From Actinomycetospora straminea (GTDB lineage Bacteria; Actinomycetota; Actinomycetes; Mycobacteriales; Pseudonocardiaceae), in contig NZ_JAQZAN010000003.1 in assembly GCF_028737255.1 (NCBI RefSeq), positions 124,001 through 188,000 on the forward strand: 64,000 nucleotides of DNA. Reading direction: 5' to 3'. Made by a program: the position numbers and the translations under genes. Numbering within the stretch: position 1 is the stretch's first letter; each line of letters starts with the position of its first letter. This document shows positions 1,382 through 62,175 of the stretch, piece after piece. The notes below the pieces were generated by a model. The model was not told where the DNA came from. It searched no databases and saw only the letters and a list, made by a program, of their open reading frames with translations.

Positions 1382-2103
1382 GCGACCGGCAGGAAGATCG
1401 AGCGCGTGATCTCCGCGGGGTCCCGGCCGATCTCGGCGCAGTAGCGGTCGAGCAGGGCGCTGCGCTCGACGCAGTCTGCGAGGTCGCCGCCGGGGATGTT
1501 CCAGAGGTCGGCGTGGCGGGCGACCACGCGCAGGGTCGCCGACGCCCGGCCCCCGACGAGGATCGGCGGGCGGGGTCGCTGGAGGGGCTTCGGGTTGCCC
1601 CACGCGCCCGTGACCTGCACGTGCTCGCCGTGGTGGTCGAACGGCGCGTCCTCGGTCCAGATCCGCTCGATGACCGTGCAGGCCTCGTCCAGCGCGGCGA
1701 CCGAGTCGCCGAAGTCGTGGTACGGCAGGCCATGGGCCTCGTACTCGCGGCGTGCCCACGGGACGCTCGGGCGGGAGCCGGCGCCGATGCCGAGGTCGAG
1801 CCGCCCGCCCGAGACGTGGTCGACCGTCGTCGCGATCTTCGCGAGCAGGGCCGGCGGGCGGATGCGGTTGCTCGTCACCATGACGCCGAGGCGCAGCCGG
1901 CGCGTGCGGGCCGCGAGCGCCGAGAGCAGCGTCCAGCCCTCGAGGATCGGGCCGTCCGGGTCGCCGCCGATGGGCAGCAGGTGGTCGAACAGCCACGCGT
2001 GCTCGATCTCGGGGACCTCGTCGGCCTCCTCCCACACGCGCAGCACGTCGGCGTACCCGACCTGCTGCGGCGCGGTCATGATGCCGAAGCTCGTCGCGGT
2101 CAC
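1222..2103 (-). CDS. luciferase-like (LLM-class) monooxygenase, probably F420-dependent
   Basis: 293-aa predicted protein of the bacterial luciferase-like/F420-dependent oxidoreductase superfamily. Visible features are AWLFDHLLPIGGD near the N-terminus, RLRLGVMVTSN, the family hallmark GGRLDLGIGAGSR, and the LQRPRPPILVGG segment before the second half of the TIM barrel. Members use F420 or FMN to oxidise or reduce diverse small molecules; the substrate is unknown. I chose the GTG at 2103 because GGGGAG lies 6 nt upstream; an upstream start at 2178 would run through the operator region. It is divergent from a TetR-family gene across two palindromes, so it is the likely target of that repressor. 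Confidence 0.87.
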   Translation of the reverse strand: MTATSFGIMTAPQQVGYADVLRVWEEADEVPEIEHAWLFDHLLPIGGDPDGPILEGWTLLSALAARTRRLRLGVMVTSNRIRPPALLAKIATTVDHVSGGRLDLGIGAGSRPSVPWARREYEAHGLPYHDFGDSVAALDEACTVIERIWTEDAPFDHHGEHVQVTGAWGNPKPLQRPRPPILVGGRASATLRVVARHADLWNIPGGDLADCVERSALLDRYCAEIGRDPAEITRSIFLPVAYDDPGATRDAAAAAVEAGFSHLVLGLPAPWPAGVARWVADEVVAPSRAAAVG

Positions 2104-2147
2104 GGCCGTCTCCCCTCGCCGGTGCGCGCCGTCTACCCTGACGAGAC

Positions 2148-2186
2148 GGAACGCGGTTCCACCAACGTTACGGAACAACGTTCCGT
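2148..2186. promoter_or_regulatory. paired palindromic operators for the adjacent TetR regulator
   Basis: Two copies of GGAACNNNGTTCC lie at 2148-2160 and 2172-2184, with centres 24 bp apart. The second extends to a perfect ACGGAAC-AAC-GTTCCGT (2170-2186). They fill the gap between the divergent monooxygenase and TetR genes. Two half-helix-phased palindromes between a TetR gene and its neighbour are the usual autoregulatory arrangement; binding itself is inferred. Confidence 0.65.
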
Positions 2187-2207
2187 TTGTCGACGACGGG
2201 GACGGGG

Positions 2208-2780
2208 ATGACCGAGGGGACGGGGCGCGCGCCGCGGCGCCGGGCCGACGCGCGGCGCAACGAGAGCGCGCTGCTCGACGCGGCGGCGGCGGTGTTCGTC
2301 GCGTCCGGGGTCGAGGCGCCGGTGCGCGACATCGCCGCGAAGGCCGGCGTCGGCGTCGGCACGGTCTACCGCCACTTCCCGACGCGCGCGGACCTCGTCG
2401 TCGCGGTCTACCGCCACCAGGTCGAGGCGTGCGCCGTCGCCGGCGAGCAGGCCCTCGAGCACACCGACAGCCCGTTCGAGGCCCTGCGGGGCTGGATCGA
2501 CGTGTTCGTCGACTTCCTCGTCACCAAGCACGGCCTGGCGGGCGCGCTGCAGTCCGACGACCCGCAGTTCCAGGTGCTGCACGCGTACTTCCTCGACCGC
2601 CTCCTGCCCGTCGGTACCCGGCTGCTCGAGGCCGGGGTGGCCGCGGGCGAGGTGCGCGACGACGTCAGCGCGATGGAGCTGATGCGCGGGGTCGGCGGGC
2701 TGTGCATCGGCCCGGCCGACGACCGCTACGACGTGCGGCACACCGTCGGGGTGTTCCTCGACGGGATGCGCGCCCCCTAG
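2208..2780 (+). CDS. TetR/AcrR-family transcriptional regulator
   Basis: 190-aa predicted repressor. Residues ~16-60 form a TetR helix-turn-helix: LLDAAAAVFVASG, then VRDIAAKAGVGVGTVYRHFPTRADL with the conserved Y-x-HFP recognition-helix end. The C-terminal ligand-binding half is unspecific but resembles repressors with an SbtR-type domain (LRGWIDVFVDFL). ATG at 2208 is preferred over a TTG at 2187, which lies inside the operator; GGGGACGGGG precedes it. It is divergent from the luciferase-like monooxygenase with two palindromes between them, so it probably represses both genes and responds to a substrate of that enzyme. Its stop overlaps the convergent XPB helicase gene by 4 nt. Confidence 0.88.
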   Translation: MTEGTGRAPRRRADARRNESALLDAAAAVFVASGVEAPVRDIAAKAGVGVGTVYRHFPTRADLVVAVYRHQVEACAVAGEQALEHTDSPFEALRGWIDVFVDFLVTKHGLAGALQSDDPQFQVLHAYFLDRLLPVGTRLLEAGVAAGEVRDDVSAMELMRGVGGLCIGPADDRYDVRHTVGVFLDGMRAP

Positions 2781-4489
2781 CTCTGCGGGTCCCGGCGCTC
2801 CGACTCCGGCTCGCCCTCGGTCTCGGTGCCCGGGATCGCCGGGCCGAGCAGGTCGTCGGCGTCGACGATGCGGTACGCGTAGCCCTGCTCGGCGAGGAAG
2901 CGCTGGCGGTGGGCGGCGTACTCGGCGTCGATCGAGTCGCGCGCGACCACCGAGTAGAAGTGCGCCTGCCGGCCGTCGCCCTTGGGGCGCAGGAGCCGGC
3001 CGAGGCGCTGGGCCTCCTCCTGGCGCGACCCGAACGTCCCCGACACCTGCACGGCGACCGACGCCTCGGGCAGGTCGATGGAGAAGTTCGCGACCTTCGA
3101 CACGACCAGCACCGGGATCTCGCCCCGACGGAACCGGTCGAACAGGACCTCGCGCTCCTTGTTCTTCGTCGAGCCCTGGATCACCGGGGCGTCGAGGGCC
3201 ACGCCGAGCTCGTCGAGCTGGTCGAGGTAGGCGCCGATGACCAGCGCAGGCTCGCCGCGGTGGCGCTCGAGGATGCTCTTCACCACCGGGATCTTGGTGT
3301 TGGCGCAGGCGCAGAGTCGGTAGCGCTCGTCGGCCTCGGCGGTGGCGTAGATGATCCGCTCGTTGTCGGTCATGGTCACGCGGACCTCGACGCAGTCGGC
3401 GGGCGCCACCCAGCCCTGCGACTCGATGTCGCGCCACGGGGCGTCGTAGCGCTTCGGGCCGATGAGCGAGAACACGTCGCCCTCGCGGCCGTCCTCGCGC
3501 ACGAGCGTGGCGGTGAGGCCGAGGCGACGGCGCGACTGCAGGTCCGAGGTCATGCGGAACACCGGCGCGGGCAGCAGGTGGACCTCGTCGTAGATGATCA
3601 GGCCCCAGTCGCGGGTGTCGAAGAGCTCGAGCGCGCGGTACTCGCCCTTCGACTTGCGGGTCATCACCTGGTAGGTCGCGATGGTGACCGGGCGGATCTC
3701 CTTGCGCTCGCCCGAGTACTCGCCGATCTCGTCCTCGGTCAGCGACGTGCGCGCGACGAGCTCGCGCTTCCACTGCCGGCCAGCGACGGTGTTGGTGACG
3801 AGGATGAGCGTCGTGGCCCCGGCCTTCGCCATCGCCGCCGCGCCGACCAGGGTCTTGCCGGCCCCGCAGGGCAGGACGACGACGCCCGAGCCGCCGTGCC
3901 AGAAGCCCTCGACGGCGTCGGCCTGGTAGTCGCGCAGCTCCCAGTCGTCCTGGACCAGCGAGATGGGGTGCGCCTCGCCGTCGACGTAGCCCGCGAGGTC
4001 CTCGGCCGGCCAGCCGACCTTGAGCAGCGCCTGCTTGAGCCGTCCGCGCTCGGACGGGTGCACCGTCACGGTGTCGTCGTCGATGCGGTCGCCCAGCATC
4101 GGGGCGATCTTCTTGTTGCGCAGGACCTCCTCGAGGACCGCGCGGTCGTTCGACAGCATGACCAGGCCGTGGACCGGCGAGTTGGTCAGCTGGAGGCGCC
4201 CGTAGCGGCCCATGGTGTCGACGACGTCGACGAGCAGGGCCTGGGGCACGGCGTAGCGGGAGTACTGGACGAGCGCGTCGACGACCTGCTCCGCGTCGTG
4301 ACCCGCGGCGCGGGCGTTCCACAGCGCCAGCGGCGTCACACGGTAGGTGTGGACGTGCTCGGGCGCGCGCTCCAGCTCGGCGAACGGCGCGATCGCCTGC
4401 CGAGCGGCGGGCGCGGCCTCGTGGTCGACCTCGAGCAGCAAGGTCTTGTCGGACTGGACGATGAGCGGTCCGTTGCCGGGCTGACTCAA
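2777..4489 (-). CDS. DNA repair helicase XPB (superfamily 2)
   Basis: 570-aa actinobacterial XPB/Ercc3-like 3'-5' DNA helicase, very similar in layout to the mycobacterial protein. An N-terminal damage-recognition-like region begins PLIVQSDKTLLLEVDHEAA. It is followed by the Q-motif region WELRDYQADAVEGFW, Walker A LPCGAGKT, the DEVH box IIYDEVHLLP, motif III LGLTATL, and motifs V-VI with QEEAQRLGRLLRPK. I chose the TTG at 4489 because GGAGG lies 8 nt upstream and because the family begins just before PLIVQSD; upstream ATGs at 4606 and 4636 would add an unusual basic leader. XPB unwinds or anneals DNA in repair. Its usual partner, the helicase-associated protein at 12.8-15.2 kb, is separated from it here by about 8 kb. 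Confidence 0.95.
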   Translation of the reverse strand: MSQPGNGPLIVQSDKTLLLEVDHEAAPAARQAIAPFAELERAPEHVHTYRVTPLALWNARAAGHDAEQVVDALVQYSRYAVPQALLVDVVDTMGRYGRLQLTNSPVHGLVMLSNDRAVLEEVLRNKKIAPMLGDRIDDDTVTVHPSERGRLKQALLKVGWPAEDLAGYVDGEAHPISLVQDDWELRDYQADAVEGFWHGGSGVVVLPCGAGKTLVGAAAMAKAGATTLILVTNTVAGRQWKRELVARTSLTEDEIGEYSGERKEIRPVTIATYQVMTRKSKGEYRALELFDTRDWGLIIYDEVHLLPAPVFRMTSDLQSRRRLGLTATLVREDGREGDVFSLIGPKRYDAPWRDIESQGWVAPADCVEVRVTMTDNERIIYATAEADERYRLCACANTKIPVVKSILERHRGEPALVIGAYLDQLDELGVALDAPVIQGSTKNKEREVLFDRFRRGEIPVLVVSKVANFSIDLPEASVAVQVSGTFGSRQEEAQRLGRLLRPKGDGRQAHFYSVVARDSIDAEYAAHRQRFLAEQGYAYRIVDADDLLGPAIPGTETEGEPESERRDPQS

Positions 4490-35531: not shown

Positions 35532-35540
35532 CCGGGCCAT

Positions 35541-35580
35541 GTGAGCGGTATTCACGGTCCTGACCGTGAACTCCGCTCAC
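35541..35580. terminator. bidirectional hairpin terminator
   Basis: GTGAGCGG (35541-35548) pairs with CCGCTCAC (35573-35580), and inside it TTCACGGT (35551-35558) pairs with ACCGTGAA (35563-35570). It lies between the convergent AhpD-like and HxlR genes. The outer GTGAGCG-ATTC head is shared with the palindrome at 55541. Confidence 0.8.
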
Positions 35581-35587
35581 GTGAGGC

Positions 35588-37587: not shown

Positions 37588-37619
37588 CGCACGACCGATC
37601 ACGGGGGAGACTCGCGGTC

Positions 37620-53502: not shown

Positions 53503-53560
53503 CTCCCCCGTCGGCTCCACCGCGCAGGGGACGTCGTGGCCCGCGGGCGTTCCTAGCGTC
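53503..53560 (+). promoter_or_regulatory. aldolase promoter with CTCCCCCGTCG element
   Basis: CTCCCCCGTCG at 53503-53513, and CCTAGCGTC (-10) at 53552-53560, 49 nt from element start to box start. The same element and spacing occur at both cbb promoters near 60.4 kb. The -10 box lies 34 nt before the aldolase start. Confidence 0.6.
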
Positions 53561-53593: not shown

Positions 53594-54649
53594 GTGACCA
53601 CGACCGCCGCGACCAGCCCGACCCGCCCGACCCGCCGCACCGGCCCGACCACCACGCCGACGTCCGAGGAGCTGCGCGCCACCGCCGCGCGCCTCGTCGC
53701 CGGGTGGCGCGGCATCCTCGCCGCCGACGAGAGCCCGCGGACCATGTCGCGCCGCCTCGCCGACGCCGGCGTCGCCCCCACCGAGGAGCAGCGCCGGGCG
53801 TACCGCGAGCTGCTCCTGACCACCGAGGACCTCGAGGCGGGTGTCAGCGGCGTCATCCTGTGCGACGAGACGCTGCGCCAGCACCTCGCCGACGGCCGCC
53901 CGTTCCCCGCCGCGCTCGCCGACGCCGGCATCCAGACCGGGATCAAGGTGGACACCGGCACCGCGCCCCTCGACGGCGGCGAGGACGGCGAGACGGTGAC
54001 CGAGGGCCTCGACGGGCTCGCGGACCGCGTCGCGGAGTACGTCGCGCTCGGCGCCGAGTTCGCGAAGTGGCGCGCGGTGCTGCACCTCGGCGCCGGGCGT
54101 CCGTCGCCCCGGGCGCTCGAGGCGGCAGCCGAGGCGCTCGCCGCCTACGCGCGCACCTGCCAGGTCGGCGGCCTCGTGCCGATCGTCGAGCCGGAGATCC
54201 TCAGCGCCGGCGGGCACCGCATCGAGGTGTGCGCCGCCGCGACCGCCCGCACGCTGGCCACGCTCGCCCGCGCCCTCGACCGCGCGGGCGTCGACCCGGC
54301 GGCGATGGTGCTCAAGCCGAACATGGTCACCGCGGGCGAGGGCGCGCGGCAGGCGGCCGGTCCCGCCGAGGTCGCCCGCGCCACCGTCGACACCCTGCGC
54401 GCGACGATGCCCGACGAGCTCGCCGGCGTCGCGTTCCTCTCCGGCGGCCAGCCCTCGGCGACCGCCGCCGCGAACCTCGCCGCGATCCGCCGCCTCGGCG
54501 GGCCCTGGCGGCTGACGTTCTCGTTCGGGCGGGCGCTCGTGTCGCCGGCGCTGCTCGCGTGGCGTGGCGACCCGGCCGCCGTCGACGCGGGCCGCGCGGC
54601 CCTGCGGCGGGAGGTCGACCGGGTCGTCGCCGCCGGAACAGCCGCCTGA
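53594..54649 (+). CDS. fba: class I fructose-bisphosphate aldolase
   Basis: 351-aa Schiff-base aldolase. Residues ~40-60 read GILAADESPRTMSRRLADAG. Further motifs are GVILCDETLRQHLADG, GIKVDTGTAPLDG and FAKWRAVLHLGAG. The Schiff-base lysine is in MVLKPNMVTAG, and the phosphate loop in FLSGGQPSATAAANLAAI. It condenses triose phosphates in the Calvin cycle (fructose- and perhaps sedoheptulose-bisphosphate) and gluconeogenesis. GTG at 53594 has GAGGAGG 6 nt upstream. Convergent with the LysR gene 5 nt downstream. Its promoter shares an element with the cbb operons, so it is likely coregulated. Confidence 0.95.
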   Translation: MTTTAATSPTRPTRRTGPTTTPTSEELRATAARLVAGWRGILAADESPRTMSRRLADAGVAPTEEQRRAYRELLLTTEDLEAGVSGVILCDETLRQHLADGRPFPAALADAGIQTGIKVDTGTAPLDGGEDGETVTEGLDGLADRVAEYVALGAEFAKWRAVLHLGAGRPSPRALEAAAEALAAYARTCQVGGLVPIVEPEILSAGGHRIEVCAAATARTLATLARALDRAGVDPAAMVLKPNMVTAGEGARQAAGPAEVARATVDTLRATMPDELAGVAFLSGGQPSATAAANLAAIRRLGGPWRLTFSFGRALVSPALLAWRGDPAAVDAGRAALRREVDRVVAAGTAA

Positions 54650-54654
54650 CCAGC

Positions 54655-55530
54655 TCAGACCCGCACCCAGCCGAGCTCCTCGTCCTCCAGCAGGTGGCGG
54701 ACGAGGAGCTCGGTGCTGGCCGTGGCGTCGGGGTGGGTGACGAAGTGCCAGGGGCGCGCGATCGGGACGCCCGGCACCGCCAGCTCCACCAGCGCGCCCT
54801 CGTCGAGCAGGCGCGCGACGCCCTCGCGCGCCACCAGTGTCACCCCGAGCCCGGCCCGCGCCGCGGCGATCGTCGCGCCGTGGGAGCCGAGCACCATGCG
54901 GGGCGGGTCGCCGGGCAGGGCCTCGAGCAGGGCGGTGAGGGTGGCGCGGATGCCGGAGCCGGTCTCGCGCAGCAGCCAGGTCGCAGTCGCCGGGTCGAAG
55001 CCGGCCGCCGCGTCCGGGGCACCGACGACGGTCAGCGTGTTCTCGCGCCGCGCGCGCACCCGGCCGTCGAGGTCACCCGGCGGGCTCCCGGCGACGACGA
55101 CGTCGAGCTCGTGGTGGCGCAGCATCGCCCACACCGCGGCGCTGGGGGAGACGTCGACGCCGACCCCGACGTGCGGGTGGCGGGCGCGGAAGGAGGCGAG
55201 CAGGGCGGGCAGGAGGTGCTCGCCGGCGGTGGTGACGGCGCCGAGACGGATGTGCCCGTGCTCCGGGTCGGCCTCGCCACGCGCGGCGGTCGTGGCCTCG
55301 TCGAGCAGGCCGAGGATGCGGCGGGCGTAGTCGGCGTAGCGGGCGCCGGCGGGGGTGAGGCGCACGCCGCGCCCGTCGCGCTCCAGCAGCGCGACGCCGA
55401 CCTCCTCGGCCAGCGCGCGCACGGCCGCCGACACCGTGGACTCGGTGACCACCAGCGCCGCCGCCGCCCCGCGCACCGACCCCCGGTCGGCGAGCGCGAC
55501 GAACGCCCGCAGGCGCGCGGTGGTGGTCAC
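54655..55530 (-). CDS. LysR-family regulator, CbbR-like by position
   Basis: 291-aa LysR regulator. N-terminal helix-turn-helix: ARLRAFVALADRGSVRGAAA, ALVVTESTVSAAVRALAEEV. The C-terminal effector domain has HIRLGAVTTAGEHLLPALLA and FVTHPDATASTELLVRHLLE. CbbR proteins of this type activate cbb operons and sense metabolites such as NADPH or RuBP; assignment rests on position between aldolase and cbbX, not on a diagnostic residue. GTG start. A perfect 46-bp palindrome lies 11 nt upstream of the start, which could be either the cbbX terminator or an autoregulatory site. Confidence 0.82.
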   Translation of the reverse strand: MTTTARLRAFVALADRGSVRGAAAALVVTESTVSAAVRALAEEVGVALLERDGRGVRLTPAGARYADYARRILGLLDEATTAARGEADPEHGHIRLGAVTTAGEHLLPALLASFRARHPHVGVGVDVSPSAAVWAMLRHHELDVVVAGSPPGDLDGRVRARRENTLTVVGAPDAAAGFDPATATWLLRETGSGIRATLTALLEALPGDPPRMVLGSHGATIAAARAGLGVTLVAREGVARLLDEGALVELAVPGVPIARPWHFVTHPDATASTELLVRHLLEDEELGWVRV

Positions 55531-55540
55531 CCGCCGAACC

Positions 55541-55586
55541 TATGTGAGCGATATTCCCGGCTATAGCCGGGAATATCGCTCACATA
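55541..55586. terminator. perfect 46-bp palindrome between cbbX and the LysR gene
   Basis: TATGTGAGCGATATTCCCGG followed by CTA is mirrored exactly by its complement, with no spacer: two 23-bp arms, centre at 55563/55564. It lies 20 nt past the cbbX stop and 11 nt before the LysR start, both on the minus strand. Most likely the terminator of the cbbLSX transcript; an operator role is possible. The head GTGAGCG-ATTC recurs in the terminator at 35541. Confidence 0.8.
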
Positions 55587-55606
55587 GACCGTTCGCACCA
55601 ACGAGG

Positions 55607-56599
55607 TCAGGAGCGGTGCCCGCCGGCGAAGACGCGGCTGGCGCGCAGGTCGGCGGCCTCGAGGGTGGTGAGGTCGGCGAGGCCGACGCGGCTGCCGCCC
55701 TCGGAGAGCCGCCGGGCCTGGCGCATGCGGGCGCGGTCGAGGGCGTTGCGCACGCTGCGGGCGCCGGCGAACCACTCCTGCTCGCGGCGCAGCGCCAGGT
55801 ACTCCCGCAGTGCGGTGTGCGCCTCGGCCGAGAACCCCAGCCCCTGCTCGGCGACCATGCCCTCGGCGATCGTCACCAGCTCGTCGGCGCTGAAGTCCGG
55901 GAAGTCGACGTGGTGCGCGATCCGGCTCTGCATCCCGGGGTTGGCCTCGAAGAACGTCGCCATCCGGTCGGCGTAGCCGGCGAGCACGACGACGAGGTCG
56001 TCGCGGTGCGCTTCCATCGCCTGCAGGAGGATCTCGATGGCCTCGCCGCCGTAGTCGCGCTCGTTGCCCGGACGGTGCAGGTAATAGGCCTCGTCGACGA
56101 ACAGCACGCCGCCGCGCGCCTTGCCGACGATCTCCTTCGTCTTGGGCGCGGTGTGCCCGACGTACTGGCCGACGAGGTCGTCGCGCGTCGCGGTGACGAG
56201 GTGCCCGCGGCGCAGGAGGCCCAGGCCCTTGAGCAGGTCGCCGATCCGCTGCGCGACGGTCGTCTTGCCCGTGCCGGGGTTGCCGGTGAAGCACATGTGC
56301 AGGGTCGGGCGGTCGGTCGTCACGCCGAAGCGCTCGCGGACCCGGTCGACGACCAGCAGCGCCGCCAGCTCGCGCAGCCGCTCCTTGACCGGCGCGAGGC
56401 CGACGAGCTCGCGGTCGAGGCGGTCGAGGACGTCGTCGACCCCGGCCTCCCGGCGGACGTCGTCGAGGTCGACGACGGCGTCGGGGGCGAGCGTCTCGGC
56501 GGGGGTCTCCTCGACGTCGTCGGGCGGCGAGGCGACGGCCGGACGGGACGCCCGCCCGGCCGTCGCGAAGGAGACCCGTCCGTTGTCAGTGCTGCCCAT
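55607..56599 (-). CDS. cbbX: red-type RuBisCO activase CbbX
   Basis: 330-aa AAA+ protein. Walker [21 protein letters not shown] (~106-125), pore-loop region [20 protein letters not shown], Walker [21 protein letters not shown], and [20 protein letters not shown] with the arginine finger. CbbX removes inhibitory sugar phosphates from form IC/ID RuBisCO by pulling on the large-subunit C-terminus. Preceding ~50 residues look disordered. ATG at 56599 lies 14 nt inside cbbS. Third gene of cbbL-cbbS-cbbX. Confidence 0.96.
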
Positions 56600-57059
56600 G
56601 GCCGGACCCGTGACCGTTGCTCCGCGAGCCGCCCCGGGCGCCGCCGTAGCGCGCGCCCGCGGGCCGTTCGGTGGCGTAGGAGTGGATCGAGTAGGTGACG
56701 CGCCGGTCCGCGCCCTCCTGGCGGTCGACGCGGAAGCCGGGCTCCTCGCTCGGCCGGTTGACCAGGAACGACAGCGCCACGGTCTGCCGTCCGAGGCTCG
56801 CGTCGTAGGCGTTGACGCGCACGTAGTGCTCCGGGTGCTCGCCGCGGCACGCGCGCACCTCGTCGAGCACCGCGGCGGGGTCGGCCAGGTCGAACAGCGG
56901 CAGGCCCCACATCTCCCAGTAGGTGTTCCGGGGGTGCGGGTCGTCGGTGTACTCCACCGAGCAGGGCCAGCCGTGCTCGAGCGCGTAGGCGATCTGCGCG
57001 GTGATCTCGTCGTCGGTCAGGTCGGGCAGGAACGAGAAGGTTCCCTGGGTGATGCGCAC
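56586..57059 (-). CDS. cbbS: RuBisCO small subunit
   Basis: 157-aa small subunit. [20 protein letters not shown] at the start; [20 protein letters not shown] with the conserved Tyr-Trp-Glu; [20 protein letters not shown]. The C-terminal extension ([20 protein letters not shown] and a Gly/Ser/His tail) is typical of red-type form I small subunits. ATG 10 nt downstream of the cbbL stop, GGAGGA 5 nt upstream; its end overlaps cbbX. Confidence 0.97.
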
Positions 57060-57069
57060 GGTGTCCTCC

Positions 57070-59734
<2,665 letters not shown>

Positions 59735-59738
<4 letters not shown>

Positions 59739-60397
59739 CGGAACACCCCCTCGCGCAGCGCCGCCGCGACGGCCGCCGTGCGGTCGGGCACCGCGAGCTT
59801 GCGCAGCAGCGAGCGCACGTGGCTCTTCACCGTCTCGTCGCCGATGACCAGCTCGGCGGCGATCGCGCGGTTGCTGTGCCCGGCGACGAGCAGCGCGAGG
59901 ACCTCGCTCTCCCGCTGGGTGAGCCCGAGGTGCGCGCCCGGCCAGAACTCGTCGCGCTCCAGGCGGGCCGCCGACGCCGCGGCGCGCCCGGCCATCGTCG
60001 CGTCGACCACCGTCGTCCCGGACGCGGCGAGCTCGAGGTGGCGGACGAGCTCCTCGCCGCCGATGTGCTTGAGCAGGTAGCCGGCGGCCCCGGCGCGCAG
60101 GGCCTGGTAGAGGTACTGCTCGTCGTCGTAGACCGAGAGCAGCACGACCTTCTGCCCCGGCGCGCGCTCGGCGAGGCTGCGGCACAGGTCGAGGCCGCTG
60201 TCGCCGCGCAGGCGCACGTCGCACAGGACGATGTCGGGGGCCAGCGACACGGCGACGTCGAGGGCCTCGCGGGCGCCGTTCGCGCTGCCCACCACCCGGA
60301 CCCGACCGGCGAACGGGGCGAGCATCGCCTTGAGCCCGACGATCACCATCTCGTGGTCGTCGACGAGGACCACGCGCAGCGGTGCGGTCCCCGTCAT
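59735..60397 (-). CDS. NarL-type response regulator of the cbb locus
   Basis: 220-aa response regulator. Receiver: LRVVLVDDHEMVIVGLKAML, phosphoacceptor in DIVLCDVRLRGDSGLDLCRS, switch Ser in VVLLSVYDDEQYLYQ, Lys in YLLKHIGG. LuxR-type HTH: LGLTQRESEVLALLVAGHSN, RAIAAELVIGDETVKSHVRS. ATG at 60397 lies only ~8 nt from the TAGGGT -10 box, so the transcript is nearly leaderless. First gene of regulator-kinase-cbbL-cbbS-cbbX. Probable binding target: the CTCCCCCGT elements in its own upstream region and at the aldolase promoter. Confidence 0.9.
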
Positions 60398-60404
60398 CCG
60401 GCTC

Positions 60405-60488
60405 ACCCTAGGGACGGCGCTGCGCGGCGTCTCCCCCGTCGCACCCCCCGTCACGGGGGAGTAGGGGCCGGGCGGCGGTACCTAGCGT
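60405..60488. promoter_or_regulatory. divergent cbb promoters with inverted CTCCCCCGT elements
   Basis: CTCCCCCGT (60431-60439) and its inverted copy ACGGGGGAG (60453-60461). The plus-strand copy begins 50 nt before CCTAGCGT (60481) of phosphoribulokinase. The minus-strand copy begins 49 nt before CCTAGGGT (60412-60405) of the regulator-kinase-RuBisCO operon. The same element begins 49 nt before the aldolase -10 box at 53552. Confidence 0.7.
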
Positions 60489-60511: not shown

Positions 60512-61456
60512 GTGCCCGACAAGTCCCTGCGCATCCGGCGCGCCGGCGGTGTGCCGTCGTCCCGTCGCCCGGTGATGCTCGCGATCGCCGGGGACAGTGC
60601 CGCCGGCAAGACGACGATGACCCGCGGTCTGGTGGAGGCCCTCGGGCCCGAGCGGTGCGTGTCGCTGTGCACCGACGACTACCACCGCTACGACCGGGAG
60701 GAGCGCAAGGAGCTGCCGTTCACCGCGCTCCACCCCGACTGCAACCACCTCGAGATCATGGAGCAGCACCTGCAGCTGCTCGCGACGGGCGCGCCCGTGC
60801 TCAAGCCGGTCTACGACCACGGCACCGGCGAGCTCGTGCGCCCCGAGCTGGTCGAGCCCGCCGAGTTCGTCATCGTCGAGGGCCTCTTCCCGCTGTGGAG
60901 CAAGCTCTCCCGGGCCTGCTTCGACGTCACCGTCTTCCTCGACCCGCCCGAGGAGATCCGCCGCGGGTGGAAGGTCGCCCGGGACACGAGCAAGCGCGGC
61001 TACACCGAGGAGAAGGTGCTCGCCGAGCTCGAGCGCCGCGAGCCCGAGTCGGAGGCCTACATCCGCCCGCAGCGGGCCAACGCCGACCTCGTCGTGCGCT
61101 TCGCGCCGATCGAGAGCCGCGACGACCCGCCCGACACGCCGCTGTCGGCGACGATGATGATGCGCCCGACCATCGACCACCCCGACCTCACCGAGGCCCT
61201 GCAGCCGGGACTGTCGCGCGCCATGCACCTCAAGCTCGAGCGGGATCGCGACGGCCGGCCCGTCGAGTCGCTGCACGTGCACGGCTACGTGCCGCGCGAG
61301 GAGAGCCTCGCGGTGGAGAAGGCGATCTGGACCTCGCTCGGCGCGCCCGACACCGAGACCCCGGAGTGCCTGGGGCGGCTCGGTGAGGCGCGCAGCGAGC
61401 CGCTCGCGATCGCCCAGCTCCTGCTGCTCTACCACCTCACGGAGGCGGCGCGGTGA
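60512..61456 (+). CDS. prk: phosphoribulokinase
   Basis: 314-aa kinase making ribulose-1,5-bisphosphate, the substrate of RuBisCO. P-loop MLAIAGDSAAGKTTMTRGLV (~22-41); CTDDYHRYDREERKELPFTA with the catalytic Asp; ALHPDCNHLEIMEQHLQLL; PVYDHGTGELVRPELV; VIVEGLFPLWSKLSRACFDV. C-terminal region with LHVHGYVPREESLAVEKAIW. GTG at 60512 has AGGGAG 5-6 nt upstream. Divergent from the RuBisCO operon and coupled to cbbY by a GTGA overlap. Confidence 0.96.
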   Translation: MPDKSLRIRRAGGVPSSRRPVMLAIAGDSAAGKTTMTRGLVEALGPERCVSLCTDDYHRYDREERKELPFTALHPDCNHLEIMEQHLQLLATGAPVLKPVYDHGTGELVRPELVEPAEFVIVEGLFPLWSKLSRACFDVTVFLDPPEEIRRGWKVARDTSKRGYTEEKVLAELERREPESEAYIRPQRANADLVVRFAPIESRDDPPDTPLSATMMMRPTIDHPDLTEALQPGLSRAMHLKLERDRDGRPVESLHVHGYVPREESLAVEKAIWTSLGAPDTETPECLGRLGEARSEPLAIAQLLLLYHLTEAAR

Positions 61457-62175
61457 TCCCCGATCTGCCCGAGGCCGTCGTCTTCGACGTCGACGGCACC
61501 CTCGCCGACACCGAGCGCGACGGGCACCGCGTGGCGTTCAACGAGGCGTTCGCCGCGCACGGGCTCGACCTGTCGTGGGGCGTCGAGCACTACGGCGAGC
61601 TGCTGACGATCACCGGCGGCCGGCAGCGGGTCGCGGCGGCGCTGCGGGCGCAGGGGGTCGACGACGCCGAGGAGCTCGCCGCGGCCGTGCACCGCACGAA
61701 GACCGACCTGTTCGTCGACGTGGTGCGGCGCGGCGAGATCGGCCCGCGCCCGGGGCTGCCCGCGCTGGTCGACGACCTGCGCGCTCGCGGCGTCCGCATC
61801 GCCGTCGCCACGACGGGCCGGCGGGCGTGGGTGGAGCCGTTGCTCGCCCACCTGTTGGGCGCGGGGACCGCGGAGGTCGTGGTGTGCGGCGACGACGTCG
61901 CGGAGCTCAAGCCCGACCCGGAGGCCTACCGGCTCGCGCTCGCCCGGCTCGACGTCGACGCCGCGCGGATCGTGGCGGTCGAGGACTCGGGGCCGGGGCT
62001 GCGGGCGGCGCTGGCGGCGGGGATCGCGACGGTCGTGGTCACGAACCACTACACCGCCGACCACGACGTCCGCGGCGCGGCGATCGTGCGCGAGGCCTAC
62101 GACACCCCGACGCCGCTCACGGCCGCCGAGCTCGGCACCGCCCTCGCCCGCACCCCCCGCGCCCGCGCTCACTGA
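61453..62175 (+). CDS. cbbY: CbbY-type HAD phosphatase
   Basis: 240-aa HAD phosphatase. Motif I VVFDVDGTLADTERDGHRVA (nucleophile Asp), cap VEHYGELLTITGGRQRVAAA, motif II IAVATTGRR, motif III/IV LKPDPEAYRLALARL and VAVEDSGPGLRAALAAG. DVDGTLADTERDGHRVAFN is diagnostic of CbbY, which degrades the RuBisCO inhibitor xylulose-1,5-bisphosphate. Together with CbbX this gives both inhibitor-clearing functions. GTG overlaps the prk stop. Confidence 0.94.
   Translation: MIPDLPEAVVFDVDGTLADTERDGHRVAFNEAFAAHGLDLSWGVEHYGELLTITGGRQRVAAALRAQGVDDAEELAAAVHRTKTDLFVDVVRRGEIGPRPGLPALVDDLRARGVRIAVATTGRRAWVEPLLAHLLGAGTAEVVVCGDDVAELKPDPEAYRLALARLDVDAARIVAVEDSGPGLRAALAAGIATVVVTNHYTADHDVRGAAIVREAYDTPTPLTAAELGTALARTPRARAH

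Follow-up and report, generated by a model that had tools for sequence, protein, structure and literature searches.

The window, a 64,000-nucleotide stretch of the Actinomycetospora straminea genome, contains a three-block DNA element of about 31 bp, TCCCCC-N7-CCNCC-N4/5-GGGGGA, which lies at a fixed distance ahead of the -10 boxes of the Calvin-cycle genes prk and fba and which, at prk, is also shared with the divergent gene of a NarL-type response regulator (Table 1). The element is almost certainly a conserved operator, and comparison of sequences and genomes makes it very probable that it would serve the two-component system encoded beside it.

Table 1 Features of the Calvin-cycle region and copies of the element, in window coordinates
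Feature	Position	Strand	Remarks
CTCCCCCGT (9-mer)	53503-53511	+	
CTCCCCCGT (9-mer)	60431-60439	+	
CTCCCCCGT (9-mer)	60453-60461	-	
CTCCCCCGT (9-mer)	37601-37609	-	
CCTAGCGT	starts 53552 and 60481		
CCTAGGGT	60412-60405	-	
Three-block element between divergent regulator and prk promoters	60431..60461		towards prk: CTCCCCCGTCGCACCCCCCGTCACGGGGGAG
prk -10 box TAGCGT	60483..60488	+	22 nt past GGGGGA
Regulator-operon -10 box TAGGGT	60405..60410	-	7 nt ahead of ATG
Three-block element ahead of class I aldolase	53503..53533	+	CTCCCCCGTCGGCTCCACCGCGCAGGGGACG
fba -10 box TAGCGT	53554..53559	+	22 nt past GGGGA
NarL/LuxR-type response regulator (receiver + GerE HTH)	59735..60397	-	proposed binder
Sensor histidine kinase (GAF, HisKA_3, HATPase_c)	58530..59738	-	
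cbbL, RuBisCO large subunit	57070..58533	-	
cbbS, RuBisCO small subunit	56586..57059	-	
cbbX-like AAA+ protein	55607..56599	-	CbbX model 447.6 bits, cut-off 459.25
LysR-type regulator	54655..55530	-	best named match CbbR, 126.5 bits vs cut-off 450
fba, class I fructose-bisphosphate aldolase	53594..54649	+	
prk, phosphoribulokinase	60512..61456	+	
HAD-family phosphatase	61453..62175	+	overlaps prk end

prk and the overlapping phosphatase gene likely form one operon (operon extents here are predictions), and every phosphoglycolate-phosphatase model scores the phosphatase under its cut-off. An Rfam search of the 53-63 kb region gave no match. Between cbbX and lysR (55540-55587, minus strand) lies a perfect 48-nt inverted repeat with a 22-bp stem and a TATA loop, an RNA energy of -48.1 kcal/mol and a z-score of -7.43 for a 76-nt stretch; across seven congeneric sequences both partners have changed in 12 of the 22 pairs, and 93.5% of cells pair. 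As a guess, it could be a terminator or attenuator ahead of lysR. The hairpin sequence has a diverged second copy at 35538-35583, with three mismatches in the conserved ends (0 of 100 shuffles), and may thus belong to a dispersed family.

An earlier note on this DNA had proposed the 9-mer CTCCCCCGT as an element placed at constant distance from three promoters. Its coordinates were correct, with 9-mer-to-box distances of 49 (fba), 50 (prk) and 49 (regulator operon), and the two divergent promoters do have a repeat in common, as it had said. The 9-mer is real, but it is the outer block of the larger element, whose inner run of C (CCCCCC at prk, CTCCACC at fba) had been overlooked and is kept in relatives. 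The blocks read CTCCCCC-GTCGCA-CCCCCC-GTCAC-GGGGGAG in the prk direction and CTCCCCC-GTCGGC-TCCACC-GCGCA-GGGGACG ahead of fba, with a palindromic core of TCCCCC-N3-6-GGGGGA. On both the prk and fba sides block 3 starts about 28 nt ahead of a TANNNT -10 box, and the 22-nt gap to TAGCGT, counted from the A of the last block, is the same. By itself the 9-mer is ordinary, with four copies in the window against 1.71 expected and 11 of 100 shuffles reaching four, and it is the spacing that is distinctive, again as the note had held: the 6,285,992-base genome has just three instances of CTCCCCCGT-N20-45-TAGNNT, all at these promoters, and the backwards control gave 0.

The spacing is conserved well beyond this species. 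Our promoter sample combined the mapped loci of the family, in which 36 of 297 genomes carry prk (the source genome counted in), with at least 80 named contigs matching a profile of the regulator; it covered many genera, among them Actinomycetospora, Pseudonocardia, Amycolatopsis, Actinopolymorpha and mycobacteria, and 8 duplicate loci were removed before the final counts. Using patterns (regular expressions) composed after viewing the sequences, and counting over genomes that are related and therefore not independent, we found the element at its fixed spacing from a -10 box in 56 of the 63 listed loci on the prk (or tkt-prk) side with a loose pattern and in 40 of 63 with a tighter one; in the region ahead of class I fba, either pattern matched 23 of 37 listed loci. 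The corresponding means in 50 dinucleotide shuffles of the regions, scored with the identical expressions, were 0.2 (maximum 2) and 0.08 (maximum 1). In the remaining 14 of the 37 loci the fba upstream region is without the pattern. A narrower fba pattern (18/42) was rejected, as it left out the window's own site; the wider one gave 26/41, and 23/37 after duplicate removal. When gaps of 20-39 nt were permitted, every distance from the start of block 3 to TANNNT still fell at 26-30 nt on the prk side and 27-29 nt at fba. The element with this spacing spans several actinobacterial families, and the -10 boxes that follow it vary (TAGCGT, TACCGT, TACCTT, TAACGT) like ordinary TANNNT boxes. The loose pattern was not found upstream of the kinase (0/51), cbbS (0/49), cbbX (0/49), lysR (0/49) or HAD (0/35) genes, nor upstream of cbbL (0/50). 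Several genera have fba and cbbL in divergent orientation, which brings the fba element close to cbbL as well.

On the regulator side the picture is different, with the prk-type distance in just 9 of the 63 listed loci. The last G-block lies 21 nt from TANNNT in the source genome, G210 and G166 (in the latter via an inserted extra G-block); the gap is 42-44 nt in three congeners, while five others and G139 have one of 9-10 nt. Because of this variation, we take the distance to be under constraint at prk and fba and a local feature at the regulator-RuBisCO operon, and the claim of one constant distance from all three promoters can be kept for the first two only. Considered by eye, the regulator-side gaps (9-10, 21, 23, 28, 34-35, 37, 40 and 42-44 nt) did not support helical phasing. 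In two loci (L034 and L039) the element is separated from the regulator promoter by an inserted short repeat that includes GTCGAGCTCCGCT, giving three GGGGGA blocks in L034, while the prk side is intact in both. The regulator mRNA is probably leaderless, since the -10 box lies so close to the ATG and TANNNT-N5-8-start codon is found in 33 of 34 family loci.

The regulator itself has a receiver domain (PF00072, 77.4 bits, cut-off 30.2) and a GerE domain (PF00196, 60 bits, cut-off 23.5), and D13, D14, D60 and K110, corresponding to the acidic pair, the phosphoryl-accepting Asp and the Lys, are invariant across 17 sequences. As judged from these domains and residues it belongs to the NarL/FixJ family; it scores 144 bits against a cut-off of 250 with the NarL equivalog, and the best 25 of 81 models all stay under their cut-offs. 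Its nearest named relatives come from Actinomycetospora species, with 98% identity to A. lutea. A HisKA_3 kinase gene adjoins it in the window and in most, not all, loci of the relatives.

To relate the site to this gene, we counted a strict palindrome, [TA]CCCCC-N3-6-GGGGG[AT], within 200 nt upstream of the regulator. It was present in 49 of 80 listed loci, against a background of 4 in 902,127 bases. Dividing the loci by whether cbbL, prk or cbbX lay in the fetched stretch (each no longer than about 12.7 kb, and some ended by contig ends), the palindrome was found in 19 of 37 listed loci with such a neighbour and in 30 of 43 without. The latter are mostly mycobacterial, many having the regulator divergent from a HAD gene. 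A relaxed palindrome was absent ahead of the regulator in 26 of the 80 listed loci, 11 of which match the looser prk-side pattern. The regulator is encoded in all 36 prk-positive family genomes, at 59% identity or more; G071 and G037, tried as prk-positive controls lacking it, were ruled out because both encode it elsewhere. Six Calvin-linked regulators form a divergent clade in which the relaxed palindrome is absent (one member, L166, matches the loose prk-side pattern), which fits a site and regulator that changed together, although loss of the site would look alike. Even in loci whose fetched stretch showed no cbbL, prk, cbbX or lysR, the core palindrome still accompanies the regulator gene, and the element tends to be found where the regulator is. 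For these two reasons we consider the NarL-type regulator the likeliest protein to bind the element, in line with the earlier suggestion that it was an attractive binder. Two further observations concern the mycobacterial loci. In L138 a regulator-kinase pair without cbb genes stands beside a HAD gene and what appears, by eye from translations, to be a valine-degradation cluster. Four cbb-linked mycobacterial loci (L104, L106, L110 and L111) carry near 2076-2143 a palindrome, CCCCCGATCAGGGG, 111-195 nt upstream of a HAD match.

The same counts bear on whether the element could instead be bound by the CbbR-like LysR protein, whose gene lies downstream of cbbX, in the way known from Calvin regulons of proteobacteria. 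That protein has CbbR as its best named match, and CbbR governs cbb genes in many organisms, according to PMC2942843 and PMC9833100. We nevertheless find this reading improbable, as none of the 30 palindrome-bearing loci without cbbL, prk or cbbX has a lysR match in the fetched stretch, and none of the 50 cbbL and 49 lysR upstream regions has the element in the orientation of the gene. Its G/C-run blocks are also unlike T-N11-A or TNA-N7-TNA, as had been remarked for T-N11-A at the outset. Moreover, another motif, CTTGATAGACA, is present with one mismatch or none in 11 of 17 cbbL upstream regions from other genera; the window's regulator-prk, fba and cbbX-lysR regions contain it only at 4-5 mismatches. 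Elsewhere in the window CTTGATAGACA has two matches at two mismatches (1.32 expected), none of them at these promoters.

We built a profile of the element from 38 training elements, none from the source genome, and searched whole genomes with it. The source genome gave three strong matches, at fba (8.0e-11), at prk in the prk direction (3.8e-8) and at G000:C54:185763 (8.3e-8), then one at E 0.0014 and nothing else better than 0.079; the regulator direction was absent among the matches. The fba and prk matches were expected because congeners sit in the training set, but the third was not, because no such element had been included. This third site lies, again with a 22-nt gap, ahead of the gene of a class V aminotransferase (sgaA) whose best solved relative is a serine-glyoxylate aminotransferase (6pk1, E 1.5e-116) and whose best curated model is the L-aspartate-glyoxylate aminotransferase BhcA (568 bits, under the cut-off of 650). 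Both activities convert glyoxylate to glycine, and the protein is a candidate serine-glyoxylate aminotransferase that might act in photorespiratory salvage. The sgaA-side element recurs in four of the nine congeners searched (G166, G243, G178 and G210, gene 87-94% identical). A 697-aa open reading frame after sgaA had no family match and was taken as spurious. The match at E 0.0014 (G000:C14:1959-2001; L181, gene 2009-3226) is a two-block TCACCC-N5-GGGTGA followed by TACCGT and a leaderless ATG, ahead of an AI-2E-family membrane protein gene (156 bits, cut-off 318); this two-block element is directly upstream of the orthologue in G235 and G178 and not so placed in G243 and G135.

Among relatives, matches at E<1e-3 were found in 23 of 24 prk-positive genomes (22/22 of one set, plus G071), many of which had supplied training sequences; the prk-positive G037 had no match at E 0.02 or better. 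Both congeners that have the regulator and lack prk had such matches, and none of the 17 genomes with neither prk nor a close regulator did. Five of these 17 gave weak matches (E 0.0085-0.017), and one of the 17, G007, encodes a 45%-identical regulator (8e-42).

The two prk-less congeners, G042 and G075, keep a regulator that is 76-78% identical and that groups with the Calvin-linked regulator of G200 (support 100/90), within a 19-row clade (100/100) that is otherwise Calvin-linked. Here the regulator gene is found together with fba, rpe and the gene of its kinase, and the element points towards hxlB-glpX-pfk-tkt-hxlA, which belong to the ribulose monophosphate (RuMP) pathway (hxlB of G042, 222.9 bits, cut-off 160). 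Similarly, G189 and G135, which have both systems, encode a 56-58% identical regulator paralog about 7.7 kb from an element facing hxlB-hxlA-glpX-pfk-tkt (hxlA of G189, 207.9 bits, cut-off 200). In all four RuMP loci the region ahead of the regulator is without the relaxed palindrome, and the element precedes the pathway genes instead. Because the same regulator lineage and site would run RuMP in congeners, the pathway may have been exchanged while the switch was kept, and we see about even chances that kinase, regulator and operator together make up a portable switch for one-carbon assimilation, serving the Calvin cycle and salvage, or RuMP in species of the same genus.

These loci also bear on whether another regulator binds the element, the two-component regulator being one more of its targets. 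Autoregulation is assumed in our reading, and the relaxed palindrome is absent at the regulator in the 26 of 80 listed loci and 4 RuMP loci mentioned, which could be read this way. The regulator, however, is the gene common to all three settings of the site (Calvin, RuMP and mycobacterial HAD), and none of the 17 genomes without prk and regulator has a strong site (E<1e-3), which makes a different binder quite unlikely. That the element is an extended promoter signal of an alternative sigma factor and not an operator, as the fixed -10 spacing and common TAGCGT could suggest, is highly unlikely, since the palindrome stands at variable distance on the regulator side, mycobacterial regulator-HAD loci have it without a prk-type -10 box, and the -10 varies as in ordinary TANNNT boxes.

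The most likely reading is an operator of the NarL-type system. Blocks 2 and 3 (CCNCC-N4/5-GGGGGA) form an inverted pair that would fit one response-regulator dimer, and block 1 (TCCCCC) could be an additional half-site about 12 bp upstream. With the T of the -10 box set at -12, simple arithmetic on the sequence puts the centre of the pair at about -43 and block 1 at about -60, positions that would let an activator contact RNA polymerase where the promoter has no clear -35 box. Inverted half-sites near -43 presumably fit an activator, going by the positions of known NarL and DosR sites, and the element is probably an activator site, activation rather than repression being suggested by position. 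The phosphorylated regulator would then switch on fba, prk-HAD and, outside the window, the serine-glyoxylate aminotransferase gene, and from the same site could control the leaderless regulator-kinase-cbbLSX operon on the other side.

What is known of Calvin-cycle control comes mostly from CbbR and related regulators, and the cbb genes of Mycobacterium sp. JC1 have reportedly been the subject of earlier work. Some actinobacteria fix carbon with trace gases in soils, as parts of PMC9561532 describe. The titles, abstract starts and passages covered by our search (passages including those of PMC4269115, PMC7895386, PMC2942843, PMC7486775 and PMC9833100) do not treat the regulator, operator or regulon described here, and say little about how form I RuBisCO is switched in actinobacteria. 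Being conserved, exactly placed and paired with a named candidate for its binder, the operator lends itself to direct tests and provides a motif with which to find the regulon in many genomes; if our reading is true, carbon fixation, a salvage enzyme and RuMP assimilation would be linked under one regulator family.

By sequence, the best solved relatives of the regulator are VraR, NarL and DevR, and like NarL, DevR/DosR and VraR it combines receiver and GerE domains; the element could work like a NarL/DosR-type operator. It differs from NarL, MadR and MctR in falling under all three equivalog cut-offs, and from its NarL/FixJ relatives in a half-site that is a C/G run and in candidate targets that are Calvin, salvage and RuMP genes. 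The arrangement resembles CbbR systems in having a regulator gene beside RuBisCO, divergent promoters and co-ordinated cbb genes, but the protein family and the DNA motif are different, and a CbbR-like gene is present in addition. In Rhodopseudomonas, the two-component system CbbRRS influences carbon-fixation genes by acting through CbbR. RegB/RegA of Rhodobacter likewise exerts a two-component influence on such genes, with RegA described as a broad redox regulator in the part of PMC5359404 consulted. Thus two-component influence on carbon fixation is known elsewhere, and within the partial texts searched we did not find a dedicated NarL-type pair with its own operator. In contrast to RegB/RegA and CbbRRS, the pair described here is of the NarL type, lies just upstream of cbbL and has its own conserved candidate operator.
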